32,367 nt of DNA from Bacteroidales bacterium (GTDB taxonomy: Bacteria; Bacteroidota; Bacteroidia; Bacteroidales; UBA7960). Each line of letters begins with the position of its first letter. Within the stretch, counting starts at the first letter, position 1. Position numbers and translations under genes: made by a program. Below are positions 6,433 to 32,367 of the stretch, one piece after another. The notes under the pieces were generated by a model. The model was not told the DNA's origin. It saw only the letters and a program-made list of their open reading frames with translations, and searched no databases. Location of the stretch: assembly GCA_003556325.1 (NCBI GenBank), contig PWRF01000308.1, positions 1 to 32,367 on the forward strand, read 5' to 3'.

Positions 6433-6987
6433 ATGGAAGAAAAGTCACCAGACGATAAGAGTATATCCAGGCAGGTCATTGAAATGATCACAGTAGCCAA
6501 CGAATATTGCCTGTTTTTAGAGAAAGCCGGACAATACAGCAGGCAGGATATCCTCAGGTATTTTCAGAAAGTCGCCCCGCTGCTGTATCTTAAGGGAGCT
6601 TTACTTCCTGCCGTCCCTGTAAACGATCCCGGGGTCATGGAACGTTATGTAACTGAAGAACAATGGGAGACTGTCTTCAAGGCCTTGCGCGAACAATTTA
6701 AGGAAATAGATGTATATTACACACTGGACCATAACAATGATTCCGTTGAGTCAAGCCTGGCCGATAATATGGCCGATATTTACCAGGACATGAAGGATTT
6801 TGTAATGCTTTATCAAAAGAACACTGCTCCCGCCCGGCAAAATGCCGTTGAACAACTCAGAGACCTGTTTCGCTGGCATTGGGGGCCAACCCTTCTTTCG
6901 GCGATGGGCAGAATACACCAGGTCCTGCATAAAGAGGTTATAGACCCCGATTTGCTTGACGAAGATCACGGATGGCTTATTGATTAA
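6433..6987 (+). CDS. DUF5063 family protein
   Basis: A predicted soluble cytoplasmic protein of 184 residues, largely helical, that I match to DUF5063 from the pattern VIEMITVANEYCLFLEKA near the N-terminus, the central PLLYLKGALLP, SLADNMADIYQDMKDFV, and the tryptophan-containing end RWHWGPTLLSAMGRIH. The family is widespread in Bacteroidota and has no established function. I chose the ATG at 6433 because family members start about 15 residues before the conserved VIEFVTVANEYC-like block. An ATG at 6403 is possible, while the full open frame back to 6217 would run through the tRNA gene and is rejected. A poor promoter match (AACCTTTG, 6326-6333) lies back to back with the tRNA promoter. Confidence 0.82.
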   Translation: MEEKSPDDKSISRQVIEMITVANEYCLFLEKAGQYSRQDILRYFQKVAPLLYLKGALLPAVPVNDPGVMERYVTEEQWETVFKALREQFKEIDVYYTLDHNNDSVESSLADNMADIYQDMKDFVMLYQKNTAPARQNAVEQLRDLFRWHWGPTLLSAMGRIHQVLHKEVIDPDLLDEDHGWLID

Positions 6988-7003
6988 TTTAACAGAAAGA
7001 CCT

Positions 7004-8480: not shown

Positions 8481-9638
8481 TTAACTCCCGGATTCAGAAA
8501 GAGATGGTATTTCAATGGTAAAAATGGTTCCTTTACCCTTTTCCGAAACAAAGGAAACACTTCCGTTAAGGTATTTCTCAGTGAGGATTTTTATGCTATA
8601 GGTGCCCCATCCCCTGCCCCTGCCTTTGGTGGAAAAGGATTTCTGAAACAGTTTGAGCTGATCGTTCTGGGGAATGACCTGTGGATTTTCCACCGATATT
8701 CTCGCCACTTCTTCATTTTTATCGTAATGAGCGTAAATCCTGACCACATCATCCTGGTTGCTGGCTTCGAGGGCATTTTTGATCATATTCATCAGCACCC
8801 TCCTGAGCAAGGTCCTTTCGGTAACAATATTCGCCACCGAAACGTCCATTTCCACCTGCCTGAATTTGTACCTGTGCATACTCTGAAGGCTCCTGACCAC
8901 TTCTGCAATAATGTCAGAAATGTCAAGTAACGAATAATCAGGCTTTAAAAGCTGACTTTCAGCGTTACTTATCAACCGGTAGGACTGCACTTCGTCGGTA
9001 ATGTTTCCAGAAACTTCATTCAGCATATCCTTCACCTGTTCGCGGGGAAGTTCTTCGAAAGTCTCGGAAAGCCCTCTCAAAATTGCAGCAGTGTTAAGAA
9101 TGTCGTGCAAAAATATGCTTTCAAGCATCTGCCTTCTCTTTTTTTCGCTGATATTTTCAAGCGTACAGAAAATATATGTCTCCCCTTCAAAAGCAAAGGG
9201 CCTGGTAGAGACACTCAATGTTAAGGAAGACCCGTTTGTAAGGGCTATGTTGCACTCATCCTGTCCTTCTGAACCTCTTTGGCTTGCCGTAATGGCTGCA
9301 TTAAAGCCGCAAACCCTGCAAAACTCAGAAGAACTGCATCCCAGTTCACCCCTCGGAGCATTGACACACCCGAGACATTCCCCGGGCCTTTGGCCCACCC
9401 CGGTAGTATTTTCATAATCATACTGCGATACAGGATGCCTGTTAAGGTAAACCACCTGCCTTTGCTCATTTAGGATCATGATGATATTGGGAGCGCTTTG
9501 CAGCAATTTCTCAAAAACCCCACTCTTCAGGATTTTTTTCGCCTGGGATTCCAGAACCGGAGGAGATACTTTCTGTGTCGGGTCAAACATATGGTTAAGA
9601 GGATTTTTAGAGCGAAAATACAAAAATCTTTCCATCAT
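8481..9638 (-). CDS. Orphan PAS sensor histidine kinase with a five-cysteine cluster
   Basis: A 385-residue soluble sensor kinase with no membrane segment. A PAS-like domain (about residues 38-165) carries C-x2-C-x9-C-x5-C-x2-C (Cys88, 91, 101, 107, 110) in the contexts GECLGC and FCRVCG. The dimerisation helix holds the phosphoacceptor in SIFLHDILN (His178). The ATPase domain has the N box at about 282-290 (LMNMIKNAL) and the G2-type loop GRGRGWGTYSIK, but the usual DxGxG G1 box is not recognisable, the equivalent strand reading VENPQV. I recall this PAS-cysteine-kinase arrangement in other anaerobic bacteria, with a redox or metal sensing role suspected but not established. No response regulator adjoins it. 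A later start at Met17 (9590) is possible. It is divergent from DUF4301. Confidence 0.88.
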   Translation of the reverse strand: MMERFLYFRSKNPLNHMFDPTQKVSPPVLESQAKKILKSGVFEKLLQSAPNIIMILNEQRQVVYLNRHPVSQYDYENTTGVGQRPGECLGCVNAPRGELGCSSSEFCRVCGFNAAITASQRGSEGQDECNIALTNGSSLTLSVSTRPFAFEGETYIFCTLENISEKKRRQMLESIFLHDILNTAAILRGLSETFEELPREQVKDMLNEVSGNITDEVQSYRLISNAESQLLKPDYSLLDISDIIAEVVRSLQSMHRYKFRQVEMDVSVANIVTERTLLRRVLMNMIKNALEASNQDDVVRIYAHYDKNEEVARISVENPQVIPQNDQLKLFQKSFSTKGRGRGWGTYSIKILTEKYLNGSVSFVSEKGKGTIFTIEIPSLSESGS

Positions 9639-12837: not shown

Positions 12838-14010
12838 CTACACCTCAAAGACTGCCGAGAGGATTTCCCTTAGCTTTTCCGGAGTGGGATTTTTTTCGAT
12901 AATTATTCCGTCAGGATCAAGCAACACAGAAAAAGGTATCTTTTCGACATTATAAAGAGCAACCACAGGAGAGTTCCATATCCTGAGATCACTAACCTGT
13001 ATCCAGTTGATCTCATCATCTTTTATACCCTGAAGCCATTGTTCACGGGTCCGGTCAAGAGAAATGCCATAAATTTCAAAGCCATGGTCGCGATATTCTT
13101 CATATATGTCACTTAGTTTAGAATTTGCTTCGCGACAGGGTGCACACCATGCTGCCCAGAAATCGACCAGCACATAATTTCCCCGCAAAGAAGAGAGCGC
13201 AACCATCTCCCCTTCCGGACATGGAAGGATAACCTCCGGGGCCTCTTTCCCGGGAGCAATGTTCTCGCTGGCCAGTCTTCGCCTCGCTTCGTTCCGGCGA
13301 TGAAGGTTCACCCGGCGGCTTAGATCCAGGACGTGCTTGTTGGTTGGATAGACTCTGGCAAGAGACTGGCTAAGGAGCTCATAATACTCAAAATGCTCGC
13401 TTTCGGTTAACAGCAATCGATTCCCAAAATACTGGTAAAGCGCAATAATCGAAGCGAGGGACCGCGGATTGCTGCGAATGAATTTTTTGACGTATTCCTG
13501 CTGCGCCGAAAAAATTTCCCTGTAGGATTCCTTCAGCTCCTCCCTCACCTGCATAAAGTCATCCTGGTATTGACTCTCCCGGAATACCTTTGCCAGCGAG
13601 TCAACAAGTTCGTGTTGATCCCTTAGGTGCCTGTTCAACTCCGATAACAGAACAGACCCTGGTGACCCTTCAATGCGGTAACTTTCGGATAAGGTATTCG
13701 CGTCTCCTTTAATGTGTATCTCTTCACCGGGTTCAACAACAAGGGTAATGTTTTCATTTTCATCCACACGTAAAACATAGAAACCGGCTTCGTTTGCCGG
13801 TTGTCGGTGAGAGAAAAACCCGGCCGAATCCGTGGTGAATGTATGCAGGGGGATCAAATCGTTTGTGGTAAGTTCCTCTAAAAACAGATTGATCTCCCTG
13901 GCATTTTCCAGATGCCCTTTTACAATAAAGTAGCCTGTTTCACCGGTATTATTACCCGATTGACAGGCCAAAAGCATAAAAGACAAGGCAAGTAACAGTA
14001 TCCGTTTCAT
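12838..14010 (-). CDS. DUF4369-thioredoxin lipoprotein (TlpA-like), CAPC motif
   Basis: A 390-residue envelope lipoprotein. MKRILLLALSFMLLACQSG is a lipoprotein signal with the acylated Cys16. A DUF4369-like beta domain (about 25-120) leads into a helical middle and a C-terminal thioredoxin fold (about 250-390) with FWAAWCAPC, the redox pair being Cys289 and Cys292. The cis-proline is in KIPFSVLLD. It should reduce or exchange disulfides in the periplasm, anchored to a membrane. The start at 14010 is set by the lipobox; a start five codons earlier is less likely. It occupies the position after mreD where other Bacteroidota carry cell-elongation genes, but it has its own -7 element, so it need not be co-transcribed with mreD. 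Confidence 0.9.
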   Translation of the reverse strand: MKRILLLALSFMLLACQSGNNTGETGYFIVKGHLENAREINLFLEELTTNDLIPLHTFTTDSAGFFSHRQPANEAGFYVLRVDENENITLVVEPGEEIHIKGDANTLSESYRIEGSPGSVLLSELNRHLRDQHELVDSLAKVFRESQYQDDFMQVREELKESYREIFSAQQEYVKKFIRSNPRSLASIIALYQYFGNRLLLTESEHFEYYELLSQSLARVYPTNKHVLDLSRRVNLHRRNEARRRLASENIAPGKEAPEVILPCPEGEMVALSSLRGNYVLVDFWAAWCAPCREANSKLSDIYEEYRDHGFEIYGISLDRTREQWLQGIKDDEINWIQVSDLRIWNSPVVALYNVEKIPFSVLLDPDGIIIEKNPTPEKLREILSAVFEV

Positions 14011-14040
14011 TATATTCGGCAACAAACTTTAGTTCCATCT

Positions 14041-19481: not shown

Positions 19482-19512
19482 AATACCCGGTGAAAAGTAT
19501 GCACCGGGTATT
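19482..19512 (+). repeat. Perfect 11-bp inverted repeat 44 bases before the protease start
   Basis: AATACCCGGTG (19482-19492) and CACCGGGTATT (19502-19512) are exact complements around a 9-base loop, AAAAGTATG. No T run follows on the plus strand, so it is not a standard terminator for that direction. It could be a protein-binding palindrome or a leader hairpin. Confidence 0.7.
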
Positions 19513-19555
19513 GAAATTTGTGGCTGTAAACAATTTTAATCCAAATCTATTCACG

Positions 19556-22500
19556 ATGAACAAAAAAACACTTACCCGAACCGTCATGCTGTTACTGATG
19601 TTCGTGCTGATCCCATGGGGATTGCATGCACAAATGTTCGAAGTTGACGCTTCTTCCATTGAATCATCCGAAAACAAAGAATATAATCAGGATATTGAAT
19701 CAGATCCTTTGCTGGACCCTGTTAACGTGGAGCGTTTTCTCGAGCAGTTTGTAAGAGGAAGCAGCCGTATCGTTGGCGGCGAAGATGTTATGATAAGTGA
19801 ATATCCCTGGCAAACGTCCATACAGCTTACCCCGCAATACGGTGGGAGCCACATGTGTGGCGGGATCATTCTTGATGACGAATGGATACTTACCGCTGCA
19901 CACTGCCTGGTGTTTGAACAAGCCGATGGTAGTTTTTTCTATCTCACTCCAGGTCACGTGCGTGTGCGCGCCGGTTTTACCAACATGAATTCAGATCAGG
20001 GTGCTTACTTTAATGCAGAGGAACTGTTTGTTCACGAAGTGTATGACCCGACCGACTATTCATACGATATAGCACTTATCCGGCTGGCTGACGAAATGAA
20101 CCTGACCGAAGAGACAGACATGGCTAAGGTGGACATCGTTTCCCAGGAAGATGCAGATCAAGGCATGACAGACCCCGGTGAGATGGTCAAGGTTAGCGGA
20201 TGGGGATCCTTGTCTTTCGGAGGCCCAAGCCCTGACCATTTGCAAGCCATTGAGGTTCCCATCGTAGACATCTCAGATACGGCTTACCCCAATCATTTGA
20301 TCACCGACGACATGATCATAGCAGGAGCTCCGGGGATGGACTCCTGCCAGGGAGACAGCGGCGGCCCCATGGTGGTTGAAGATGGTGAAGGATGGTACAA
20401 AGCAGCCGGAATTGTCAGCTGGGGAATCAATTGCGGTTTGGCTCAGTATCCGGGCGTTTATGTCCGGGTAAGCTATTTTGAGGATTGGATCCGCAACATC
20501 ATTGAAACACCGGATCCCAATCAATTTCAGATCGTGCACTACGAAACCTTCGGAGACGGTACCATTCCCGCTGAATGGTCAAACGTAGTTATTGAAGGAC
20601 CCGACGGCTTCCCGGGCTGGGAATGGACAGATGAAGGAGGAGCCTACGGAGGACAACTGAACTCGACCACCGCCGATGACGGCTACGTAATGGTAAATTC
20701 TATGGCGCATGGACAACACGGAGTAAGCGAAGAAGCCCATCTGATCTCCCCTCCGATCGATCTCACAGGTGTTGAAAACGACATTCTTTTCTCTGTTGAA
20801 CACCGTGCGCGCACATTCGGAAATGCCGACGTGAGCATCCTGATGAGTACCGACGGCTTCAATACAGAAACAGAACTCTACAGATGGCATGATGCCAACC
20901 CAAACCAATATAACGGGGATAACCCCGTGGTATCTGAATTTGACATCACAGACATTGTACAGGGTGAATCCGGGGTGCAGTTCAAATTCAAATGGATAGG
21001 ATCAGCCGATTACTGGTGGCTGGTGGATGACTTCCTGGTGCGCATTGAGTTTCCACCACTGGAGGTGGAGTTCCAGGTTACCGACGGGGAAGACCCCTTG
21101 AGTGATGTAATGCTTTCCACACCTTATACCGGACAGGAAACCGTAACGGATGAAAACGGAATTGCATACCTCACCCTATATGAGGGCATGTATGAGATCA
21201 GCGCCTACAAAAGTGGCTACCATCCCTTCGTGGAAACATTTGAAGTGACCCACGACGGGCAGATCATCCATATCGAAATGGAACTGATCACCTTCCCGGA
21301 AATTGTTATCGATACCGATGAAATAAACATTGCTATCCCACAAGGAGCCACCGAACACTTTACCGTTAATTTTTCAAACCCCGGTGATGGGGACCTGGAG
21401 TTTGCTCTTTTTGCCTACCCCTCCACTGGTGGCAAACAATCAGATGATTACGTAGAAATACATCACGACACCGGCTACAATAACAATGGAATCGGAACCG
21501 GAGGTGCTACCTCTTTTTCAACCGCAGCAAGGTTTACCGCAGAAGAGCTGGCCGGGTATTATGAGATATACCAGCTTGGAGCTGTAAGATACCATATTCA
21601 TTCTGATCATTTTTCACAGGTTGAAGTAAAAGTCTGGAAAGGAGGTTCAGACTCAGGGCCCGGCAACGAGATCTATTCTGCCGATGTTACTGACGATGTC
21701 ATACCCGGAGAATGGTCGTTGCATATCATGAACGATCTGGTAAATCTTGAAGCAGGCGAAGAGTACTGGATCGGCTATGCCATACAGACCACAGGAGGCC
21801 ATCCCGCATCCGTCGACTCCGGACCCATGGTGGAAGGCAAGGGTGGCTGGATGTTCTTTAATAACGTTTGGCAGGAGCTTCCTGACCTGAACCCGGCTTT
21901 GGACTTCAACTGGAACATCAGGGGGCTCATTTACCTGGCAGACGAAATCGACTGGCTCAGCTTTGACCCGCAGTCAGGTATCGTGGAACCGGAAACCAAC
22001 AAGGACATCGACTTCATTTTTGATACCAGCGGCCTTGAATTAGGACCGCACCACGCAGACGTCCTGGTGCAGAACAATGCCGGCGAAAGCATTACCATTC
22101 CCGTTACCGTCAATGTCGAAGTGGGTGAGTTCGATGTCACTTTTAACGTCACCGATGAAAACGGTGCCCCGGTAGATGACGCAACCATTACACTGGGCGA
22201 TCAGACCAATACACCGGGGGACTATACGTTTGAAGCCATGCCCGTTGGCCTGCACGCATACCAGGTTGAGAAAACAGGGTACCATACCGCCGAAGGCTAT
22301 ATAGAGGTTGGATTTGAAGATATGACAGTGGATGTGACTCTCGTTTCTGACGATACGGAATTGGTGACGTTGAATGTTAGCGTTGAAGACGAATTTGAAG
22401 ATGCCGTAGCAAGCGCATTCTTTATGATAGACGGTTTTGGCGGACATATGACAGATGAAAACGGCCAGATCGTTTTGCCAATGATTCCGGGCACTTATGA

Positions 22501-23518
22501 CTACTCTGTTAGCAAAACAGGATTCGAAACCGTTACCGGTGAGGTAGTAATAACCACCGATGCCGATCAGTTCCTGGATATTTCTATGAACTATCTTCGT
22601 TTTGATATAGTGGTTGATATTAACCTTGATGAAGCCGGAACGGTTACTGGCGGCGGTGAATACCTCTATGGTGATTTTGTCACACTAACGGCCGAAGCCA
22701 ACGAGGGCTATCATTTCCTGCATTGGTTTGAAGACGGACAAATAATAAGCGAAGACGAAGAATATGAGTTCATGGTAACACAGGACAGACATATCACTGG
22801 CGTTTTCGACCTTATAACCTATACCATTCACGCCACCCTGAGCGGCAATGGCGGAATGGATCCTTTTGGGGTTGTAGAGGTTCTGCACGGCGAAGACATT
22901 ACATTCACCATGGAACCCCTGCCAGGAAATCACATTGAAGACGTGCTGGTAAACAACGAAAGTGTTGGAGCTGTTACGGAATATACCTTTGAAAATGTAG
23001 TTGAGGACGGGCACACCATTCACGCCGAATTTGCACTTAACACGTATGTTGTTTCCATTACCTCCGAAGGTAATGGAACCGTTGATCCGTATGGCGATAT
23101 AACGGTATCTCATGGAGATGACCTGCACATACAGATGTTTCCCGATGCAGACCACCACGTGGCCGATATATTGATTAATGGTAGCAGCGTTGGTGACGAT
23201 GAAGAATATCTTCTCACCAACATCACAGGCGACATGACCGTACACGTGGTCTTTAGCTTATCGGTGGATGTTGCAGACCTGGACGCTACACCGGACATCA
23301 CCCTGTATCCAAACCCGGCCCGCGACAGGGTGACAATAAATAGCAGCGAAATCATCTCCGTCATAGCACTTTATCATATTACAGGTCAACGGATCAAATC
23401 AGTATATCCCGATGCCAGGGAACACTCGCTGAATGTCGGCCAGCTGCAAAGAGGCACATATTTTTTGCGGATTCAATACCAGGACGGAGTGACGACTAAG
23501 AGCCTGCAAATAAGATAA
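19556..23518 (+). CDS. Secreted trypsin-like serine protease zymogen with T9SS sorting domain
   Basis: A 1320-residue surface or extracellular protease. A signal peptide (about 1-22, ending HAQ) and a propeptide lead to the activation site Arg71-Ile72 (SRIVGG). The S1A domain (about 72-317) has the full triad: His116 (TAAHC), Asp171 (YDIALI) and Ser268 (GDSGGP). Asp262 sits at the bottom of the S1 pocket, predicting cleavage after Lys or Arg. Then come a jelly-roll-like domain (about 325-500), several small beta-sandwich repeats with DENG motifs, an ASH-like region, three repeats resembling InlB B or bacterial bulge domains (about 1005-1240), and a type A T9SS tail from LYPNPA (about 1245-1320). 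I chose the ATG at 19556 because it opens onto the signal peptide; the frame is open back to 19490. It converges on another T9SS cargo. Confidence 0.93.
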   Translation: MNKKTLTRTVMLLLMFVLIPWGLHAQMFEVDASSIESSENKEYNQDIESDPLLDPVNVERFLEQFVRGSSRIVGGEDVMISEYPWQTSIQLTPQYGGSHMCGGIILDDEWILTAAHCLVFEQADGSFFYLTPGHVRVRAGFTNMNSDQGAYFNAEELFVHEVYDPTDYSYDIALIRLADEMNLTEETDMAKVDIVSQEDADQGMTDPGEMVKVSGWGSLSFGGPSPDHLQAIEVPIVDISDTAYPNHLITDDMIIAGAPGMDSCQGDSGGPMVVEDGEGWYKAAGIVSWGINCGLAQYPGVYVRVSYFEDWIRNIIETPDPNQFQIVHYETFGDGTIPAEWSNVVIEGPDGFPGWEWTDEGGAYGGQLNSTTADDGYVMVNSMAHGQHGVSEEAHLISPPIDLTGVENDILFSVEHRARTFGNADVSILMSTDGFNTETELYRWHDANPNQYNGDNPVVSEFDITDIVQGESGVQFKFKWIGSADYWWLVDDFLVRIEFPPLEVEFQVTDGEDPLSDVMLSTPYTGQETVTDENGIAYLTLYEGMYEISAYKSGYHPFVETFEVTHDGQIIHIEMELITFPEIVIDTDEINIAIPQGATEHFTVNFSNPGDGDLEFALFAYPSTGGKQSDDYVEIHHDTGYNNNGIGTGGATSFSTAARFTAEELAGYYEIYQLGAVRYHIHSDHFSQVEVKVWKGGSDSGPGNEIYSADVTDDVIPGEWSLHIMNDLVNLEAGEEYWIGYAIQTTGGHPASVDSGPMVEGKGGWMFFNNVWQELPDLNPALDFNWNIRGLIYLADEIDWLSFDPQSGIVEPETNKDIDFIFDTSGLELGPHHADVLVQNNAGESITIPVTVNVEVGEFDVTFNVTDENGAPVDDATITLGDQTNTPGDYTFEAMPVGLHAYQVEKTGYHTAEGYIEVGFEDMTVDVTLVSDDTELVTLNVSVEDEFEDAVASAFFMIDGFGGHMTDENGQIVLPMIPGTYDYSVSKTGFETVTGEVVITTDADQFLDISMNYLRFDIVVDINLDEAGTVTGGGEYLYGDFVTLTAEANEGYHFLHWFEDGQIISEDEEYEFMVTQDRHITGVFDLITYTIHATLSGNGGMDPFGVVEVLHGEDITFTMEPLPGNHIEDVLVNNESVGAVTEYTFENVVEDGHTIHAEFALNTYVVSITSEGNGTVDPYGDITVSHGDDLHIQMFPDADHHVADILINGSSVGDDEEYLLTNITGDMTVHVVFSLSVDVADLDATPDITLYPNPARDRVTINSSEIISVIALYHITGQRIKSVYPDAREHSLNVGQLQRGTYFLRIQYQDGVTTKSLQIR

Positions 23519-23706: not shown

Positions 23707-26700
23707 TTAATTCCTTAACAGGAACATCCTGTCGCGGTAAGTATGGTCGTCGGTTTTGATTTCAAAGATATACACCCCGTCAGTGAGTGCTTGACCATCG
23801 GGTCCTCTGCCGTTCCATTTTACTTCGTTCACACCCGATGGATACAAGGTATTAGGGGCAATGTTGAAACGTCTTCCTGTCATGTCATATACGTATATGG
23901 CCGCATGGGCAGGTTTTGTGAGGGTGAATGTGATGTTGGTGATATCTGAAAAGGGATTTGGGTAATTGTAGGCTCGCACCAGTTTGCCCTCATCCACTGT
24001 ATCGATTCCTGTCTCATCTGTTACCATTTGTACTTCAATGGTTTTATCTTCATCAAGTACAAAAGACCCTTCATGAGCAAAATAACCCTCTTTTGTGACA
24101 GTAAAATCATATTCGTCTTCAATAAGCTCAAAGCTTACCATTCCCTCTTCATCAGTAGCTCCGGTGTGACCGGTTTGAGTAATAACGACGGTTGCATTTT
24201 CCAAAGGGTTGGCGGGCTCCTGGTCGTCAGATACAACGAAGGTGACGTCATAATAGGTCAGTGTCACTTTAGTGCCTCCCGAAAAAGCACCCACATAATT
24301 GTTCCTCGAGCTTGCAACTACCTCCATCGAATTGTCGCCTGTGATATCAGGCACAGCCATTATGGCATCCACCGCATCGGGCATGGGCACCGAATCAAGC
24401 ACTGCTCCATCGGCACCTGAAAGGAAATACAGGTAGTTGTGGTTAAAGAGCGTACCCACAGCCACGTCGTTAATGCCGTCACCATCTATGTCGCGCATGG
24501 GTGAAACGGCCCAGCCCTGGTCAGCGATTTCTGTAGACCAGATGAACTGACCGTCTTTTCCGCTGATCGCACGGGCTTGGTTGACTGTGGAATAAGAGGG
24601 AATCACATCCACATACCCGTCTACATTTAAGTCACCGGCAAGCCAGAAGTCCACAATAATTGCATTGCCCAGGTTGCCTGAATGAACAACCTCACCGTTA
24701 GTTACATCCATAAGATAATAGTGGCCCGAGAATGAGCCTGCGATGACGTCACTGATGCCGTTATCAGTAATGTCATCAATTTGCTCCAATGCCCAGACGG
24801 CAGTGCCAGCTGTTGTAAAGTCCCATTCGATGTTTCCGTTGGCCCCATTGATGCCGATAACACGACCCTCCTGTGCAACTGTTTGTCCGCCGGCAACCAC
24901 ATCCGGTACACCATCGCCTGTGAAGTCTTCAACCGCCAGGACCGAGTATGCAGCACCTCCCATGGGGGTGTCCCATATTATCTCACCGTTGCTGCCATCG
25001 AGCAGGAATATCCTCCTTGGGCCGGTTCCATCTCCATCGTCGCCGGTTGCAGCCAGCACATCACGCACACCGTTGCCGTTATAGTCAAAACGTGTGTCGA
25101 TCATATAGACCCATCCACCACCACCGTATATGTTGGTTTCAAAACGCCAGATGATCTCGCCGGTGCGCGACGACAAGGCCGTTACGGCGCGGTCGCCATA
25201 GGCAGTACCGATAACAATGTCATAATAACCGTCGTCGTTAAGGTCATCCGTTAACCTCACGGCTTTGGGATACTCAACAGTACCTATGTGTTTCGACCAG
25301 AGGATATCCGGGGTATCGCTGGCATTGCCAGCAAGCATATACAACGTTAAACCCCTTGTGCATACCAGCACATCGTCAACACCGTCGTCGTTAACATCAG
25401 GCACACTAAGAATAGCACGGGGGTTATCCACCGAATGGCCGGGAAGCATAAGATCCCAGACCACAGCAGCCATTGGAAACTCCATGTCGACAGATTCGCC
25501 GGATAGCGGAATCTGATAGGGCGACTGTTCGTCGTTGTTAAAGTTTATGTTTGCATTGCTTTCCAGCAACCCTTCCGTTGCCGGCTGAAACCAGAAAGGC
25601 AGGGAATCAACCTCCACCGGATCAAGGATTACAGGGAACTCAACAGTCCAGTCCCACCAAAAATCATATATACAAAAGCCGATAGACTCAATTACCATAG
25701 GCTCATCTCCCATATTCTGCAACACAAGGAAATCCCTCGAACTGGAGTTTAAGCGGACTGTTCCAAAGTCGATCTCTTCCTGATGGGCGTACAGGTATGC
25801 ACCTGAAGCCAGCCCGTTTCCCTTAAGGATAACCTCAGTGACAGGTGTGGCCACATCGTTGCTGTGAATGCTCATGATCTTTTCATACATGTTTATCTCC
25901 TGTGGGTCGAAAATGACAGGAATGTGTGTTGACGCACCCGCATCAATATGTACCGGAAAACTGACATCAACAGAAAAAGATTCGTTATCTTCCGGGAAGG
26001 TAATATCATCAATGATAAGCTCTCCGGTACCAATGTTATTGACCAGCATGTTCCATTCTTCATGATCACCAAGAGTAACATCACCAAAGTGGTAGGAGTC
26101 AAGCACCTGGATAACCGGTGTTCCCATCCCCCATGGATCGACCTGGTATAAAGTGCTCTCCCCCATAGAGGTGCGCCCTATATACCACAAAAACGCACCA
26201 TCATAATAAATGCCCGTTACACGGTGATCGTCATAGGGAAATGACTCCACCAACGTACCATCAGACTCAACCAGGTGAATAAAGTCATTCCAGAAATCAG
26301 CAATCCAAATGGAATCTCCCTGCATGGCCAGGTCCCAGGGCTGATCCGTTGGCGGGACAAAGCTGGAGAGCTCATTGCCATTTAAATCAATGTTTTGAAT
26401 GGTACCTGGATTGGGATGATAGATCCCAACCCATAACGTGCCGTCATCCCAGGCAATCCCCGACATAAAATTCTCATCCAGTTCGATGGAAGTGACCTGG
26501 TTGCCTTCCATGTCAAGCTGGAGTGCATGCGCCGGGTTGATCTCCCGGCTGATCGTCCATAGATACTCACCGTCGAATGTCAATCCGAATGCATTATCCT
26601 GGGGCCCGGAAAAAAGAAACTCAAGTTCTTCGGTTTGGGGGTCAAAGGTGTAAACCTGGTCACCTATCCCACCATACAGGGAACCGATATAAATGAGCTC

Positions 26701-26859
26701 ACCGTCAGAAGCAAGACCACCGGCATTATTATGAATCTCATACTGATTGATGATCGTCCACTCGCTGCCACCACGCTGGGAACCAGGTTGGCCGGCGACA
26801 AAAAGTGGAATTACAGATAAAAAAACAAAAGCTGTTAGTAGTGTAAATAATTTCTTCAT
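23707..26859 (-). CDS. Large secreted beta-propeller / ASH / calcium-repeat protein with T9SS sorting domain
   Basis: A 1050-residue exported protein of unknown function. After a signal peptide (about 1-23) come a propeller-like region (about 30-240, repeated blade pattern such as GEYLWTIS, GTLWVGIY, DSIWIADF, GAFLWYIG), two ASH or choice-of-anchor-D-like domains (about 245-350 and 355-465, SIHSNDVATPVTEVILKGNG), and an FG-GAP/quinoprotein-like stretch (about 475-860). That stretch has eight D-x-(N/D/T)-x-(D/N)-G-type loops such as DVNDDGVDD, DLNDDGYYD and DIDGDGIND, probable calcium sites. One beta-sandwich repeat (about 880-950) and a T9SS tail beginning YNYPNPFSD with an FlgD-like fold (about 970-1050) follow. 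No catalytic residues are recognised, so binding or adhesion is likeliest. It lies downstream of the Omp28 lipoprotein gene (176-base gap) and may or may not belong to that operon. Confidence 0.88.
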   Translation of the reverse strand: MKKLFTLLTAFVFLSVIPLFVAGQPGSQRGGSEWTIINQYEIHNNAGGLASDGELIYIGSLYGGIGDQVYTFDPQTEELEFLFSGPQDNAFGLTFDGEYLWTISREINPAHALQLDMEGNQVTSIELDENFMSGIAWDDGTLWVGIYHPNPGTIQNIDLNGNELSSFVPPTDQPWDLAMQGDSIWIADFWNDFIHLVESDGTLVESFPYDDHRVTGIYYDGAFLWYIGRTSMGESTLYQVDPWGMGTPVIQVLDSYHFGDVTLGDHEEWNMLVNNIGTGELIIDDITFPEDNESFSVDVSFPVHIDAGASTHIPVIFDPQEINMYEKIMSIHSNDVATPVTEVILKGNGLASGAYLYAHQEEIDFGTVRLNSSSRDFLVLQNMGDEPMVIESIGFCIYDFWWDWTVEFPVILDPVEVDSLPFWFQPATEGLLESNANINFNNDEQSPYQIPLSGESVDMEFPMAAVVWDLMLPGHSVDNPRAILSVPDVNDDGVDDVLVCTRGLTLYMLAGNASDTPDILWSKHIGTVEYPKAVRLTDDLNDDGYYDIVIGTAYGDRAVTALSSRTGEIIWRFETNIYGGGGWVYMIDTRFDYNGNGVRDVLAATGDDGDGTGPRRIFLLDGSNGEIIWDTPMGGAAYSVLAVEDFTGDGVPDVVAGGQTVAQEGRVIGINGANGNIEWDFTTAGTAVWALEQIDDITDNGISDVIAGSFSGHYYLMDVTNGEVVHSGNLGNAIIVDFWLAGDLNVDGYVDVIPSYSTVNQARAISGKDGQFIWSTEIADQGWAVSPMRDIDGDGINDVAVGTLFNHNYLYFLSGADGAVLDSVPMPDAVDAIMAVPDITGDNSMEVVASSRNNYVGAFSGGTKVTLTYYDVTFVVSDDQEPANPLENATVVITQTGHTGATDEEGMVSFELIEDEYDFTVTKEGYFAHEGSFVLDEDKTIEVQMVTDETGIDTVDEGKLVRAYNYPNPFSDITNITFTLTKPAHAAIYVYDMTGRRFNIAPNTLYPSGVNEVKWNGRGPDGQALTDGVYIFEIKTDDHTYRDRMFLLRN

Positions 26860-27035
26860 GATTACGATAGTTTAAGTTGCCAGATAGGATTCTGTGCAAT
26901 ATAATAAAAGCTTTTCAAAATGTAAATCCTGATTGTATGTTAAGGAAGGTATGCTATCCAGGGCAAGCTTGAAAACGGGCAAGCGATTAAGAAGAAGCGT
27001 GATCGGAAAAATTGCCGCCGGAAAATTTTCAGGCA

Positions 27036-27893
27036 TCACTCCGGAACAACCGGAGAAGCTGTCACCTGCATTACCTCTTCAGTCAGCGCATGGTGCACAA
27101 AGGCAACGATCTTGCTGTTTTCCGGGATCCACTCGTTGTCCCAATTGAGGGAATAGGTTTTTTGGAAAGACATTCCCGGTGATATGGATGCATCATTCAG
27201 GATCTCACCCCACACATCGTTGAAACTCGCACGAAGCACATAATTGTGCTCATAATCTTCAATGACTCCTGAGGGATAATCCGGGTCATTCGTTTTCTGA
27301 GGTTTTACAATGCCACTTTCGGTAAGAAAAACCGACAGGCGGTAGTTGCAGTCAGAGCTTTCAAGAACATACACATTGACATCCACCTTCAGTGTGTTCT
27401 CATCCGGATCATATGCACTATCTATATGAATATCAAAGCCGGGAGGTTGATCAGTGAGCTGGGGGATGGCTTCTGCCCAGGCTGAATGGCTCAGCAGCAA
27501 GCTGCCTCCAAATCTTGTTCTGTTTACCAGGCCAATGGGAAATTGCTGCACATTGAAATGGTCGGCCAGGGCAGACCCCACCGGCGTTGTAAAATCGTAA
27601 CTAAAAAGGTCATCGTCGGTATTCGCAAACCAACCGGCATGAATGGTCAAAATTACCAGCTGGTCACCATATAATGCCTTCAGGTCTTTTGCTGCTTTGC
27701 TGGCTTCAGGGCAGTTGGGACACTGATGTCCGGTAAACTCCTCGAGCAAAACCCGGCTGACCACCTCTCCGTTTTCTCCGTTGTGATCATGATCTACCTC
27801 GGTAGTATAGGGTGGATCAATTTTATCACACCCTGCAAAAAACATCACCACAGCGACGAATAAGGATTTTAATAGTGCTTTGTATCTTTTCAT
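27036..27893 (-). CDS. Omp28-related lipoprotein with thioredoxin-like CPNC motif
   Basis: A 285-residue envelope lipoprotein; the signal ends in a lipobox with Cys22 (MFFAGC). An N-terminal thioredoxin-like half carries LLEEFTGHQCPNCPEA, with Cys58 and Cys61 in the CxxC position, followed by a beta-rich half (about 150-285). This layout matches the Omp28-related family of Bacteroidota, whose function is not established. A His/Asp-rich stretch DHDHNGENGE lies just after the lipid anchor and may bind metal, although that is speculative. Unlike the related 485-residue protein upstream in the operon it has no T9SS tail, so the two would end up in different places. The gene follows DUF6029 after 35 bases. 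Confidence 0.85.
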   Translation of the reverse strand: MKRYKALLKSLFVAVVMFFAGCDKIDPPYTTEVDHDHNGENGEVVSRVLLEEFTGHQCPNCPEASKAAKDLKALYGDQLVILTIHAGWFANTDDDLFSYDFTTPVGSALADHFNVQQFPIGLVNRTRFGGSLLLSHSAWAEAIPQLTDQPPGFDIHIDSAYDPDENTLKVDVNVYVLESSDCNYRLSVFLTESGIVKPQKTNDPDYPSGVIEDYEHNYVLRASFNDVWGEILNDASISPGMSFQKTYSLNWDNEWIPENSKIVAFVHHALTEEVMQVTASPVVPE

Positions 27894-27928
27894 TTCTTAC
27901 AATTTTTTCAAAACGTCGAAACGTACCC

Positions 27929-29608
27929 TCAGAAGCTGCTGGTGACTCTAAGCGTAAACCCATTAGAGGCCGGAACCTGCCGGCACACACCTCCCACGCA
28001 TACGATGCCTTCACGTTGTTTGCCATACGACAGGCTGAAACGGTTCCCCCCTCTTGAATACCCCGCACTAACGGAATAATAATGGATTCTCAGGTCTTTA
28101 TCGTCGTTTCCGTAATTGTACTGATCGCTGACGGCAAAAAACCAATGAGGTGCAATAGTATACTCTACCATAGCCATGGCCCAGTTCTGATTATCCTGGG
28201 CAGTGGAGAGGTGCTGAAGTTCCCAGCGGAGGCTGCGGCGATCCGGCAGACGATAGCTCATGTCGGCAATAAAGATATGGGCCTTTACATCTTCCCTGTC
28301 TACGTAACCCTCAATAACATTCTGGTTATAGAAGATGTAAGCATACGAGAACAGGGCTCTGAACGTGCGTGAAAAGCGCCGGGAGATTTCCACATTGAAA
28401 TCCCGGAAGTAGGTCTCATCGCCCGGCCTGAAAAAATCACTTTTGTAGCCGTCTGTGCCTCTTGCTCCTATGGGAATAGTGTCATGAATGGCTTCTTTAT
28501 GAATGGATTGTGCCTGGCTGTAATTCAATGTCACCGAGGTGCCGAACTGTCCTCCAAGCGGGGTTCCACGAGGAATGGTAAAATTTAGCTCACCCATGAC
28601 ACCAAACTCACCCGTTGGCTGGGTTGCATAGGGATACATACCACTGAGCGAGTACAAATGCTGCCTCGTAGTCGGCGGCAAATAATTAATGTTCAGATCA
28701 TTACCTGTGGCGTTCCGGTCTGACCGGAAACCCATGTTGTCTATATGCTTGGCTGACAGCAAAAGTCCAACCCCCCGGCGTGAATAGGAAGCATTTAAGT
28801 GCAAAGCCTGGCCATCTTTATAGATGAAATTATTTTCAGCAGAAGGGTCGTTTACTTTATGGGCATATTCAGCCGACAGGCTCACAGGCCCTCTTCCGAA
28901 GTTGAGGCGCCCGGCAAAAGCTGCTACGTTTTCAGGCAAATGGTACAAGGGGTTCTGGTCGCTTTGGTACTTGCTGACCACACTGCCTCCTATAGTCCAG
29001 CGGTTATTGCTTTCCTCCAGGAAGCCGAGCACCGAATTGAGCCTTACACGTGCATCAAAGCCCCTGACAATGCCCGGTCCTGTATCAAAATACAGGCGTT
29101 GCTGACCAATAACACCTCTCAGCGTTACCCCATCAGCAGGACGGTACACCAGACGCATGCCGTCCATGGCATTGTCGACGCCTAAATCACGTTCTTCGTA
29201 GGTGCGCAACACCATCCCGCTGCCAAACTGTTCATAGAAATTACCGGCTGTCACTTCCAGGTTTTCCTGTGAGTAAGAAGCAAAGCGATAAGGAATACCG
29301 TTGCCACGGTAGCGTGGGTCATAACCAAGCAAAGCATTCTGGTAACTTTCGTAACGGATGCCCATGCTGAAACCCCGGTAAGACATGTTTACATTTGCAA
29401 AGCCATTCATGAGGATCTTTTCCGACACATCCGGGGCACCTATCAATGTGTCGGAAATGTAGTACTGTGCTTCAAGGTCAACATTGCCCCAGATACGAAG
29501 CTCTGATAAAAAATCTCCTGCCCGGACGGCCTGTACATGTATCAGGATCATGCCGGCTAAGAAAAACAGAAAAGCCTGCAGCAAACTGCTTCTATTGCCT
29601 CTCATCAT
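27929..29608 (-). CDS. DUF6029 family outer-membrane beta-barrel protein
   Basis: A 559-residue predicted outer-membrane barrel. A signal peptide (about 1-31, ending VRA) is followed by alternating amphipathic strands with aromatic girdles throughout (for example NVNMSYRGFSMGIRYESY, FFAVSDQYNYGNDD, YSVSAGYSRGGNRFSLSYG), and the chain ends in phenylalanine (RVTSSF), the usual BAM recognition residue. I assign DUF6029 from the N-terminal pattern and its company with Omp28- and TlpA-type genes; the family has no known function. The start overlaps the TlpA stop by one base (TGATG), implying translational coupling. A second Met follows immediately. No TonB box or plug domain is visible, so it is not a TonB-dependent receptor. 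Confidence 0.8.
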   Translation of the reverse strand: MMRGNRSSLLQAFLFFLAGMILIHVQAVRAGDFLSELRIWGNVDLEAQYYISDTLIGAPDVSEKILMNGFANVNMSYRGFSMGIRYESYQNALLGYDPRYRGNGIPYRFASYSQENLEVTAGNFYEQFGSGMVLRTYEERDLGVDNAMDGMRLVYRPADGVTLRGVIGQQRLYFDTGPGIVRGFDARVRLNSVLGFLEESNNRWTIGGSVVSKYQSDQNPLYHLPENVAAFAGRLNFGRGPVSLSAEYAHKVNDPSAENNFIYKDGQALHLNASYSRRGVGLLLSAKHIDNMGFRSDRNATGNDLNINYLPPTTRQHLYSLSGMYPYATQPTGEFGVMGELNFTIPRGTPLGGQFGTSVTLNYSQAQSIHKEAIHDTIPIGARGTDGYKSDFFRPGDETYFRDFNVEISRRFSRTFRALFSYAYIFYNQNVIEGYVDREDVKAHIFIADMSYRLPDRRSLRWELQHLSTAQDNQNWAMAMVEYTIAPHWFFAVSDQYNYGNDDKDLRIHYYSVSAGYSRGGNRFSLSYGKQREGIVCVGGVCRQVPASNGFTLRVTSSF

Positions 29609-30105
29609 CAGTCCAGCAGTTCAATTAACTTGTCAAACATTTCCCATTCCATGCCATCATAGAAAGACGTGTGCTGATAAACAATCTCCCCCTCTCCGTT
29701 CAGGATAAAGGTATGTGGCACATTGTTCACACCCATGGCACGCCTGAAGTCGCCATTTTCATCAATATAGAACTCATAATCCCACCCCCTGCCGCTAACC
29801 ATGGGGAGGACGTTGGGTTGTGTACGGGCATCATCGGTGCTGACAGCAATCAGTTTAAATCCATAATCCTTCCATTCGTGATAGATCTCATCGATGGCAT
29901 TCAATTCTTTAAGGCAGGGGCGGCACCACGTAGCCCAAAAGCTGATCACAAAGGGTTTACCGTCGTTGTCGAGCTGAAGCGTATTGATTTCATCGCCGTC
30001 CAATGTTGCTATGGTAAGTTCGGGAAGTGTTGAATGCCGTTGCGCGAATGCTGCAGAGGCTAAAAACAATGCAAAAAGGGTGATCAGGATCTTGTTTCTT
30101 GTCAT
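29608..30105 (-). CDS. TlpA-family periplasmic thioredoxin, CRPC motif
   Basis: A 165-residue exported thiol-disulfide oxidoreductase. A signal peptide (about 1-22, ending AFAQ) is followed directly by a single thioredoxin fold with SFWATWCRPC (Cys61, Cys64) and the cis-proline in NNVPHTFIL. The TlpA insertion ELNAIDEIYHEWKDYG is present. It probably keeps a specific partner reduced in the periplasm. Candidates are the two Omp28-related CxxC proteins encoded on either side in the same operon, or cysteines of the DUF6029 barrel. The gene begins 4 bases after the preceding stop and overlaps the next start by one base, so the three genes are almost certainly co-translated. Confidence 0.93.
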   Translation of the reverse strand: MTRNKILITLFALFLASAAFAQRHSTLPELTIATLDGDEINTLQLDNDGKPFVISFWATWCRPCLKELNAIDEIYHEWKDYGFKLIAVSTDDARTQPNVLPMVSGRGWDYEFYIDENGDFRRAMGVNNVPHTFILNGEGEIVYQHTSFYDGMEWEMFDKLIELLD

Positions 30106-30109
30106 TTGA

Positions 30110-31567
30110 TTACCTTGTTATAGTAAGTTTGTCGTGAAAAACTCCTCTGTCAGTCTCAACCTTTATTATGTATATTCCAGGCTCCAGTGCTTCCGTGTCG
30201 ATACGAAATGAATCAGATATAAGCTGATCTCTAATCTCTTTGGTCAAAACCACCCTGCCCCGGAGATCAAAAATACGAATATTATTTATAGCAAGGTTTT
30301 TATCCGGCTTCACAAACGCAAAGCTGGTTGCAGGATTTGGATAAACAAGCAGGTCTGGCTGAGCATCCGGACCGGGTACAGAAGTCTCATCTCTATCCCC
30401 GTTGTCGTCATTATCATCATCACCATTATCTCCATCGTTATCGCCATTATCATTTTCTTCCGGTTCATCATAATAGAGCCTGCTGACCTGGAATATTTCC
30501 CTGGTCTCCATATCCTGTATAAAGGCGAGCAATTGGATCCGGGTAGTGTCTACGATGCTTACATCCAAATGTCTTTTTACTTCAATGGCAAACTCCGACC
30601 CTGCATCAAGGTCTCCCAGCTGAATGCCCCCCGCATCGGGAACGAAGGCCCGCATCACATGATAAAAGCTTTGTTCGCCGTTGCTTCCCGGTGGCTCATC
30701 AAAATGTACCTCATCTTCCGTCAGGCTGATGAAAAGACGCAAATCCTGATCTTGAAAATCTGCATGTGAAAAGGCACTAGCCTCAGCATAAATGGTGTCG
30801 TTATCAAAATAATAACTGGCATCTATTTCGAAAGCAGCCGGTTTCATCATTTCCAGATCCATCATGTCTTCCTTCACAAATTCAGCAGGCCCAAAAAACA
30901 GTCCCCCTATGTTTGCAAGGGGTGTATATGTAACACCGTAAAAATCCCTTCGTATATCGTGATCGCGGGGGTTGAACAGATAAAGGGGGCTGTTTTCATA
31001 ACCGAGAGGATGGTAAAATATCATCGAATAGTTTTCAGGGTTGCTGTTTACCATAGTGCGGATCTGGGGATTGACTATCGCACAGCTTCCGCAATTCTGA
31101 CTTGAGAAGCTTTCCAGCAGAACCAGTTCCCTGGCAGGAAGATATTCATATACGGCAACCTCTATCAGCAAGGTGTCACTTACTCCCTCGTCAATGGGGG
31201 CACCATTCAATCCCGAAAACCATAATTCAAGATCATAGTTACCTTCCGATGATGGCACCCAGTGTTCATCTGCCTCATAATAAAACGGTATTTGCGGGTT
31301 CAGGCCAATGTTGTCAAAAAAGGTGGTATGAACTTCACCTCCGTCAATCTGATAATGCATAAAAAGGGACTCAAAAATACCTGACCCGATAAAGGCAAGT
31401 TCGCCATGAACATAATATTCTGAGTCTGTCTGGGCAATTGGCCCGCTGAAAAACCGGTCAAGGCGTATGTCATGAATTTTGCTGCTCCCGAAAACAACTG
31501 ACTGTCCAATTAAAACAGTTATAACGGCAAACATTATTTTTTTAATAACAGAACAGGGGTGTCTCAT
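30110..31567 (-). CDS. Omp28-related CGSC protein with T9SS sorting domain
   Basis: A 485-residue exported protein. The signal peptide covers about residues 1-27. An N-terminal beta domain (about 28-140) comes before a thioredoxin-like segment, LLESFSSQNCGSCAIVNPQI, with Cys159 and Cys162, and a beta-rich Omp28-like region (about 250-380). A highly acidic Asp/Asn/Gly linker (about 386-410) then leads to a type A T9SS tail from VYPNPA to the C-terminus. Secretion to the surface through T9SS separates it from the periplasmic TlpA and from the lipid-anchored Omp28 paralogue of the same operon. It is the first gene of the operon, 4 bases before the tlpA-like gene. Function unknown; a surface disulfide or thiol-binding role is inferred. 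Confidence 0.87.
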   Translation of the reverse strand: MRHPCSVIKKIMFAVITVLIGQSVVFGSSKIHDIRLDRFFSGPIAQTDSEYYVHGELAFIGSGIFESLFMHYQIDGGEVHTTFFDNIGLNPQIPFYYEADEHWVPSSEGNYDLELWFSGLNGAPIDEGVSDTLLIEVAVYEYLPARELVLLESFSSQNCGSCAIVNPQIRTMVNSNPENYSMIFYHPLGYENSPLYLFNPRDHDIRRDFYGVTYTPLANIGGLFFGPAEFVKEDMMDLEMMKPAAFEIDASYYFDNDTIYAEASAFSHADFQDQDLRLFISLTEDEVHFDEPPGSNGEQSFYHVMRAFVPDAGGIQLGDLDAGSEFAIEVKRHLDVSIVDTTRIQLLAFIQDMETREIFQVSRLYYDEPEENDNGDNDGDNGDDDNDDNGDRDETSVPGPDAQPDLLVYPNPATSFAFVKPDKNLAINNIRIFDLRGRVVLTKEIRDQLISDSFRIDTEALEPGIYIIKVETDRGVFHDKLTITR

Positions 31568-31656
31568 GATAATATGTTTAGTCTTGATGATTCACAAAAC
31601 TGTTTTATAAAATTAAAGATTATACCGCTCAAGCGAAACGGGTCTGTTATTTGTCA

Positions 31657-31687
31657 ACCTTTGAGTGACCTTGAGTAACTTTTGTAC
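31657..31687. repeat. Three imperfect direct repeats of 10-11 bases upstream of the redox operon
   Basis: ACCTTTGAGTG (31657-31667), ACCTTGAGTA (31668-31677) and ACTTTTGTAC (31678-31687) follow one another at about one helical turn, as operator half-sites often do. They lie 90-120 bases upstream of the first start codon. Confidence 0.35.
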
Positions 31688-31873
31688 AGAACAAAGCTTT
31701 ACCAAGTTTCCTAAGAAAAACAAATAATTGCTCAGCAAATTAATCAAAGATTAAAACAAACGACATTTAAAAATGTAAATTTATCAATATTTTATATGCT
31801 TTCCAAAAAAGAGTGCTTACTATTTATCGAAACGACACTCCGATTCCCGCCCGTTGATTGAAGCCACAAAAAC

Positions 31874-31905
31874 AAAAAGGGCCACCACATAAGGCAGCCC
31901 TTTTT
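31874..31905. terminator. Rho-independent terminator after the truncated T9SS cargo gene
   Basis: AAAAAGGGC (31874-31882) pairs perfectly with GCCCTTTTT (31897-31905) around a 14-base loop. A runs on the plus strand give a T run on the minus strand, where the gene ending at 31946 is read. Confidence 0.75.
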
Positions 31906-31945
31906 GCATCAGACAATTGATATTGTCAGATAATTAATTAATCAC

Positions 31946-32367
31946 TTACCTGGTGATTTGTACTCTCTGGGTAGCCACACCCTGATCGGTAGTGACCTGG
32001 ATGAAATATACACCCGCTTCAAAATCAGCTACGTTGATCTGGTGTACATCATTACCCACAGAAGTATTGTAAACCACCTGGCCCAATATGTCTATCATGC
32101 GGATCTCTGTGATGGTGGCATCTGCTTCGACATACAAATTAGATTGTGCCGGATTCGGATACACCTTCAGGCTCAGTGCTTCCGTATCAGGAACAGACAC
32201 ATCATCAACCACCAGTGTCACTTCCACCGTCACATCGCCATCAACTTCCACTGTGCCTTCGACCGTAAAGAAACCGTCCCTTTCGACCATGTAGTCGTAC
32301 GTGCCTTCTTCCACGTCGTCGATCACATAGTGCCCGGGATCGTACATTACCCCGTCGAAGGTCACCA
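31946..32367 (-). CDS. C-terminal part of a T9SS cargo protein, 5' end outside the window
   Basis: About 140 residues are visible and the frame is open to the window edge, so the start lies beyond it. The first 55 residues are a small beta-sandwich repeat (EEGTYDYMVERDGFFTVEGT) like those in the two large cargo proteins of this window. A type A T9SS sorting domain follows, from KVYPNPAQSNLYV to the end, with DILGQVV and AGVYFIQV. The catalytic or binding part of the protein cannot be seen. Confidence 0.88.
   Translation of the reverse strand, partial: VTFDGVMYDPGHYVIDDVEEGTYDYMVERDGFFTVEGTVEVDGDVTVEVTLVVDDVSVPDTEALSLKVYPNPAQSNLYVEADATITEIRMIDILGQVVYNTSVGNDVHQINVADFEAGVYFIQVTTDQGVATQRVQITR

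Follow-up and report, generated by a model that had tools for sequence, protein, structure and literature searches.

A cluster of four genes on the reverse strand of a Bacteroidales contig (PWRF01000308.1 of assembly GCA_003556325.1; the whole stretch analysed, 32,367 nucleotides (nt) long, is called the window) encodes a predicted cargo protein of the type IX secretion system (T9SS; gene A), a TlpA-type thioredoxin (gene B), a predicted outer-membrane barrel of the DUF6029 family (gene C), and an Omp28 lipoprotein (gene D). Comparison of DUF6029 loci revealed that TlpA, the DUF6029 barrel, and Omp28 constitute the core of a conserved module, with PorA as a frequent fourth partner. On balance, we lean towards the view that the window cluster is one lineage's version of an outer-membrane thiol module, the targets of TlpA and Omp28 being cysteine pairs in the barrel and in PorA. 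The module is most likely a dedicated outer-membrane thiol system whose task is to establish or maintain the correct thiol state of these pairs.

The four reading frames, their boundaries, and their spacing (4 nt between A and B, an overlap of 1 nt between B and C, and 35 nt between C and D) agree with an earlier description made from the DNA letters alone, hereafter the sequence-only reading. That reading regarded the four genes as one translational unit. As a set conserved across genomes these four were not supported: the conserved unit is TlpA-DUF6029-Omp28, often with PorA, and gene A does not belong to the core. The interpretation of the cluster as an envelope thiol module is supported. 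The thiol relay across the outer membrane that the sequence-only reading proposed is possible, and both this relay and the direction of electron flow in the module are matters that we infer.

Conservation of the TlpA-DUF6029-Omp28 neighbourhood

DUF6029 was detected in 15 of 41 relatives and in 101 of the 392 genomes of a phylum set, where 99 of the matches exceed the curated cut-off. The 14 control genomes, one of them a Bacteroides, gave no match. Neighbourhoods were compared in 62 DUF6029 loci, comprising 14 from relatives, one from genome G270, 40 from phylum genomes, six named loci, and the window. The 40 phylum genomes were fetched from the 101 with DUF6029 and are mostly strong matches, few per genus; distant DUF6029 variants are under-represented among the loci, with one locus (L112) from family f41. 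Loci L047-L051 lie on the same contigs as L059, L061, L063, L062, and L064, respectively, and were excluded from the counts.

TlpA lies directly upstream (position -1) of DUF6029 in 46 of 61 loci, in 42 of them on the same strand, whereas no other offset has TlpA in more than 5 of 57 loci; at this frequency it is not a chance neighbour. Omp28 lies directly downstream (+1) in 40 of 61 loci. Every neighbouring TlpA (46/46) and every neighbouring Omp28 protein (40/40) carries a CxxC motif. Counted by family, TlpA was found beside the barrel in 27 of the 30 sampled families, Omp28 in 20, and PorA within five genes in 13. A neighbourhood confined to close relatives, or CxxC cysteines that vary among orthologues, would have contradicted the sequence-only reading, and by these counts neither is the case. 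By comparison, no Pfam family occurred in more than three of 140 other neighbours, a set of proteins of 150-620 amino acids (aa) located no more than three genes away (145 were eligible, of which five were removed at random; proteins shorter than 150 or longer than 620 aa are excluded from it). SprA was present in 100 of the 101 DUF6029 genomes.

The family counts bear on a simpler explanation, namely that these are ordinary co-located envelope genes, a general-duty TlpA next to an outer-membrane protein that has a structural disulfide, with no pathway shared between them. TlpA-type genes are indeed common, the 2.8-Mb genome of the window having 16 AhpC-TSA matches. However, the presence of TlpA beside the barrel across nearly all sampled families, the co-occurrence with PorA and the Omp28-PorA fusions described below, and the position of both Omp28 matches of the genome inside the module (genes A and D) argue against it, and we consider this explanation improbable.

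Individual loci depart from the common arrangement. In G270, which lacks a SprA match, DUF6029 is accompanied by a 689-aa Omp28-like lipoprotein (L072). A distant variant, seen in L070 and L112, consists of TlpA, a DUF6029 protein with the motif CTSGIC, and, further along, a TlpA-type gene that itself encodes a T9SS tail; L112 has another TlpA between the last two.

Cysteine motifs of the barrel, TlpA, and Omp28

Gene C matches PF19494 (DUF6029) at positions 15-538 of 538 (E 7.9e-190; 632.5 bits against a cut-off of 27), and this was the sole match in a Pfam scan, with no usher, Wzi, or AlgE family among the results. The sequence-only reading had cast the barrel as the one partner lacking a cysteine motif, which is contradicted by a C-terminal C-x4-C present in 60 of 62 DUF6029 frames, most commonly as CVGGVC (35/60). 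These are the only cysteine columns shared by at least eight of the 62 sequences. Both frames without the pair are cut short: L098 is truncated, and in L096 the split-off tail carries CVGGVC in a frame of its own. The DUF6029 match of L098 (G266) covers profile positions 1-355 only; a PorA-like gene adjoins it.

In an AlphaFold2 (AF2) model of gene C (predicted local distance difference test (pLDDT) 72.8; predicted template modelling score (pTM) 0.70), we counted approximately 24 strands. The C-x4-C forms a small hairpin (534-538/541-545) between the last barrel strands, 522-531 and 548-558. Because both termini of outer-membrane barrels lie in the periplasm as a general rule, we infer that this hairpin faces outwards in the modelled barrel. 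LptD is likewise a barrel of the outer membrane, and it needs thiol-disulfide enzymes in order to assemble. Its disulfides lie at the periplasmic side and it uses the general enzymes DsbA/DsbC, whereas the DUF6029 pair is predicted to lie in an outer loop and the gene of the enzyme neighbours that of the barrel.

Among the structures listed for the model (residues 37-559), the fimbrial ushers aligned with the most residues and the lowest root-mean-square deviation (rmsd): FimD (3ohn) gave a VIA-align Z of 18.1 with an rmsd of 3.6 over 365 residues, and PapC gave a Z of 17.5 with an rmsd of 4.0 over 370 residues. AlgE was tied with them in Z (17.4) at an rmsd of 6.1 over 313 residues, and 18-strand OprD-type porins reached Z 15 to 17. 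Gene C has a modelled barrel of a size similar to FimD and PapC but no usher family match, with 11-14% identity in the structural alignments; the resemblance may reflect pore size alone. The AlgE alignment would also suit a role of DUF6029 as a polysaccharide-export porin of the Wzi/AlgE kind, with the thioredoxins as chance or housekeeping neighbours, and some Wzi-barrel homologues are reported to be similar to DUF6029 by HHpred (PMC9603273; here and below, papers are cited by PubMed Central identifier). Against this role, no polysaccharide-export family was present among the 25 commonest Pfam families of the 140 neighbours (184 rarer families lie beyond those 25), glycosyltransferase family 2 occurred in just two of the 140, and the regular placement of TlpA at -1 is not that of a chance neighbour. 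We regard a polysaccharide porin as very improbable.

Gene B was assigned to TlpA/ResA-type thioredoxins in Pfam and NCBIfam scans, and with a signal peptide recognised by eye, its product is presumably periplasmic. It scored 76.9 bits against NCBIfam ResA, below the cut-off of 170, and is classed as a TlpA-type thioredoxin only. With the periplasmic thiol-disulfide proteins TlpA, ResA, and CcmG it shares the family match and the CxxC; it differs from them in staying under the cut-offs of the named kinds in NCBIfam and in being tied to a barrel gene. Its closest solved relative is 2m72 (E 1.7e-42), an uncharacterised thioredoxin-like protein that we take to be PG_2175. The relatives ResA, CcmG, and TlpA are reductases or isomerases, mostly reductants. 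Because these relatives act in this manner and the genome encodes a DsbD-type donor (a DsbD_TM match over cut-off that covers half of the profile), TlpA most likely works as a reductase or isomerase. VKOR, sought as an oxidant, was not found in the 86%-complete assembly.

Gene D passes the cut-offs of both PF11551 (E 5.7e-33; 114.6 bits against 34.9) and NF033782 (161.9 bits against 150), and with the pattern-derived lipobox FAGC it was classified as an Omp28 lipoprotein. Profile-profile comparison with TlpA gave 92.8% probability with the CxxC motifs aligned, consistent with the sequence-only claim that three CxxC motifs of the cluster stand in a thioredoxin-like context; for gene B this follows from Pfam, and for genes A and D from profile-profile alignment with TlpA. 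Residues 108-281 of gene D match 2r2c, a domain of the Porphyromonas gingivalis Omp28 lipoprotein PG2173 (E 3.6e-12), a match that leaves out the thioredoxin-like N-terminal part with CPNC. A quite different use is reported for a T9SS-secreted 'Omp28-related' protein of Paraprevotella, which recruits trypsin (PMC9477747).

PorA as a frequent partner

A family of approximately 245-aa proteins with T9SS tails recurs beside the module. Its members have the size of PorA and its layout of signal peptide, Ig-like domain, and T9SS tail. In Pfam and NCBIfam scans of four of them, only the T9SS tail exceeded the cut-off (Por_Secre_tail, 4/4). A profile (A3) was built from 20 of 26 proteins of 225-285 aa with a T9SS tail beside DUF6029; two duplicates were dropped, as were four proteins (L070, L086, L089, and L112) judged by eye to lack the FC..C motif or to be of TlpA type. 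This profile matched 6kjk, the crystal structure of the PorA N-terminal domain, at E 1.9e-5 (next match, E 0.24), and with this kinship and the T9SS tail the neighbour genes were assigned to the PorA family. A phmmer search of the PDB with a single PorA-like protein was set aside, as it returned T9SS-tail and chance matches only and the profile of 20 was needed.

Two cysteines are invariant in all 20 profile members and fall inside the alignment with 6kjk; by our count they are spaced C-x4-C in 15, C-x3-C in four, and wider in one. The 20/20 is partly a product of selection because four members had been removed by eye. The pair is also present in 11 of 11 further PorA domains that the profile later found in the loci, which were not part of the profile and are hence unselected.

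PorA was located within five genes of DUF6029 in 26 of 62 loci, and at any position in 63 of the 392 phylum genomes. DUF6029 was present in 56 of these 63 as compared with 45 of the 329 genomes without PorA (odds ratio 50, p 6e-32), and the association stayed when the 310 SprA genomes alone were considered (56/63, p 3e-26). The two genes lie within 10 kb of each other in 39 of the 56 genomes and within 2 kb in 31, and PorA occurs in 38 of the 43 genomes whose DUF6029 match reaches E 1e-100 or better. By genus (174 genera), DUF6029 occurs in 42 of the 45 with PorA, and PorA in 42 of the 66 with DUF6029. In the set of 41 relatives, PorA is accompanied by DUF6029 in 12 of 13 genomes (p 7e-7), and within the genus in 4 of 5 (p 0.011). 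In two loci, an Omp28-type thioredoxin is fused to a PorA domain (469 aa in L054 and 478 aa in L103). The fusion of L103 (G106) adjoins a 495-aa T9SS protein with three tandem PorA domains.

In P. gingivalis, PorA (PGN_0123/PG2172) is located on the cell surface, its domain is reported to be FimH-like, and its deletion lowers the expression of T9SS components via PorXY-SigP, with the mediator from PorA to PorY described as unknown (PMC7712824). The neighbour family resembles this PorA in size, layout, and its profile match to 6kjk, the difference being that PorA lies outside the window and was not found in its 86%-complete assembly. PG2172 is PorA and PG2173 the Omp28 lipoprotein (PMC9722745), PG2174 is uncharacterised in a vesicle proteome (PMC4335976), and on PG2175, PMC3946380 has a microarray-probe note only. 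From the gene order, PG2174 would be the DUF6029 protein. If so, and if 2m72 is PG_2175 as assumed above, all four partners are direct neighbours in the organism whose T9SS has been studied best. The PorA paper (PMC7712824) does not contain the word Omp28 and has thioredoxin once, in the reference list, and in the sections consulted it gives no role for the cysteine pair; in the portion of the open-licence literature covered, nothing was found that joins PorA with DUF6029, TlpA, and Omp28.

Collectively, these observations lead us to favour the following model. The DUF6029 barrel would reside in the outer membrane with its C-x4-C hairpin outward, while periplasmic TlpA and membrane-anchored Omp28 would determine whether the pairs in the barrel and in PorA are thiols or disulfides during assembly. 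The thiol state of a secreted, HBP35-like gene A product would likewise be set by TlpA/Omp28. The state of the pairs would then decide whether the barrel-PorA assembly is made and active. Maturation only, sensing of outside redox conditions, and outward electron transport are each possible roles of such a module. The module may be the missing redox partner of PorA-based T9SS control, and the conserved gene order yields named candidates, DUF6029, the Omp28 lipoprotein, and TlpA, each with a conserved cysteine pair.

Several points weigh against this model. TlpA is adjacent in none of six loci of family f50, and the evidence for its contact with the barrel or with PorA is indirect. The cysteine pair of the barrel may be a plain structural disulfide. 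In a single DUF6029 genome, G270, SprA gave no match, and the barrel may thus occur independently of T9SS. A search of the window's assembly at E 1 gave no PorA match (the assembly is 86% complete, and the contig ends 0.8 kb upstream of the module), and 45 of the 101 DUF6029 genomes lack a PorA match, which indicates that the barrel does not need PorA; five PorA-less genomes, that of the window included, have strong DUF6029 matches. The two genes are far apart or on different contigs in 17 of the 56 genomes with both, and seven PorA genomes have no DUF6029 match. Furthermore, the PorA profile was derived from DUF6029 neighbours, which makes co-occurrence easier to find, and kinship among genomes is handled in the co-occurrence tests by the genus tally only.

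A more specific version, which we hold tentatively and consider rather unlikely, is that TlpA-DUF6029-Omp28-PorA constitutes an outer-membrane redox sensor. The outward barrel C-x4-C and the PorA C-x(3-4)-C would exchange disulfides via the thioredoxin-fold Omp28, TlpA would recharge the system from its periplasmic side, and PorA, by its thiol state, would raise or lower T9SS through PorXY-SigP; the barrel could at the same time serve PorA as an exit independent of T9SS. If true, this would account for signalling from a surface protein to an inner-membrane kinase. It would also explain why PorXY, which responds to haemin and protects against peroxide (PMC8050853), answers to both.

The exit function has also to be considered on its own. 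PorA, and perhaps Omp28 too, could leave through DUF6029 or be seated in it at the outer membrane. DUF6029 would then be a conduit that does not depend on T9SS, the thioredoxins would only help its disulfide to fold, and this would answer how PorA reaches the surface without the Sov translocon. Mutants in sov and porV still display PorA on the surface (PMC7712824), a different pathway for its secretion has been considered (PMC8754138), its gene is often close to that of the barrel, and the 24-strand ushers are the best structural matches by residues and rmsd among the structures listed. Against this, ushers and AlgE are tied in Z and 18-strand OprD-type porins come within 3 Z units of them, the Pfam scan gave no usher family, and 45 of the 101 DUF6029 genomes are without a PorA match. 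PorA moreover co-purifies with PorV and Sov (PMC8754138), and, being found bound to them, may use Sov normally. We judge the conduit unlikely.

A histidine kinase encoded at 8481-9638 on the reverse strand of the window was considered as PorY and dropped, as its translation shows no N-terminal hydrophobic stretch and PorY is an inner-membrane protein (PMC7712824). This 385-aa kinase, without an evident membrane segment, carries the series CxxC, C, CxxC within approximately 25 residues in its N-terminal half, and it is possible from this motif that it is an iron-sulfur, zinc, or haem redox sensor.

Gene A and the layout of the window

Gene A is a predicted T9SS-secreted protein: it has a type A sorting domain at the C-terminus (Por_Secre_tail, E 7.8e-13, 49 bits against a Pfam cut-off of 27), a signal peptide judged by eye, and SprA in its own genome (G000). 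Membership of Omp28 could not be assigned with PF11551 (23 bits against a cut-off of 34.9), and the NCBIfam match to Omp28_seleno (E 3e-10) was also under cut-off, although hhalign gave 99.2% probability for kinship with gene D (E 2.8e-19). Genes A and D are accordingly paralogues as judged by their profiles. The CGSC of gene A aligns with the TlpA CxxC at 88.9% probability in profile-profile comparison, and this cysteine pair (10/10) and Pro216 are invariant in the family alignment. Omp28-like genes at -2 of DUF6029 were found in 13 of 57 loci; gene A is lineage-specific and outside the phylum-wide core.

A PDB sequence search with gene A gave zero matches at E 0.1. Its AF2 model, of low confidence (pLDDT 68.8, pTM 0.51), has the order strand-CxxC-helix, and its best fold match in the PDB was HBP35 (5y1a, E 9.9e-15; next match 1.3e-6), in a loose superposition of several domains (rmsd 18, template modelling score (TM) 0.39/0.58). 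HBP35 (PG0616) of P. gingivalis is a T9SS-secreted thioredoxin; gene A differs from it by an extra N-terminal part and an Omp28-type domain behind the thioredoxin part. HBP35 is a haemin-binding protein that acts as a thioredoxin in vitro (PMC2907840) and is counted among T9SS cargo (PMC7712824); surface thioredoxins of its kind are also reported from Muribaculaceae (PMC13404670). With the reported activity of HBP35 and the reported role of PorA in T9SS control, the sequence-only statement that the partners have no established role is in part outdated.

This likeness suggests that the cluster could handle redox or haem/iron at the surface, with gene A as a haem-binding thioredoxin of the HBP35 type and the barrel taking up or releasing a small ligand, and the response of PorXY to haemin would fit. 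However, gene A is lineage-specific, the fold match comes from the low-confidence model and loose superposition just described, and no family recurs in more than three of the 140 other neighbours, a set that leaves out proteins above 620 aa, the size of most TonB receptors. Such a function seems hardly probable to us.

Table 1 Coordinates of the module and its features within the window
Feature	Position	Strand	Basis
Gene A, T9SS cargo, 485 aa, CGSC	30110..31567	-	Open reading frame (ORF) list
Gene B, TlpA type, 165 aa, CRPC	29608..30105	-	ORF list, Pfam
Gene C, DUF6029 barrel, 559 aa	27929..29608	-	ORF list, PF19494
Gene D, Omp28 lipoprotein, 285 aa, lipobox FAGC, CPNC	27036..27893	-	ORF list, PF11551
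CGSC of gene A (C159-C162)	31082..31093	-	Sequence and family alignment
T9SS C-terminal sorting domain of gene A (residues 408-483)	30119..30346	-	Por_Secre_tail
CRPC of gene B (C61-C64)	29914..29925	-	CxxC in 46/46 neighbouring TlpA
C-x4-C hairpin CVGGVC of gene C (C537-C542), loop before last strand	27983..28000	-	Alignment and model
CPNC of gene D (C58-C61)	27711..27722	-	CxxC in 40/40 neighbouring Omp28
Intergenic region upstream of the module, 378 nt, likely promoter place	31568..31945	-	Terminator-like hairpin inside
Terminator-like hairpin after the previous gene	31907-31872	-	Terminator scan

A putative promoter of the module likely lies in the intergenic region upstream of gene A. A scan of 25500-32367 found five terminator-like sites as compared with 6.4 expected in shuffles, none of them within the three intergenic gaps of the module, and 23 promoter-like sites as compared with 10.7 expected, such that inner promoters are possible.

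The gene upstream of the module (31946-32365, reverse strand) is cut by the contig end and encodes a PEGA domain and a T9SS tail; at its place, the relatives L061 and L064 have a second Omp28-type T9SS protein, of 838 or 815 aa, followed by porA. Just downstream of the module, 23707-26859 (reverse strand) encodes a 1050-aa protein with a HYDIN-type Ig domain, an FG-GAP/PQQ propeller, and a sorting-domain-like tail that is over the NCBIfam cut-off and slightly under that of Pfam. Elsewhere, the window encodes two more TlpA-type proteins of 492 and 395 aa (6956-8434, forward strand, and 12838-14025, reverse strand), which are among the 16 AhpC-TSA matches of the genome, and a 1342-aa trypsin-like protease with carboxypeptidase-regulatory domains and a T9SS tail (19490-23518, forward strand).

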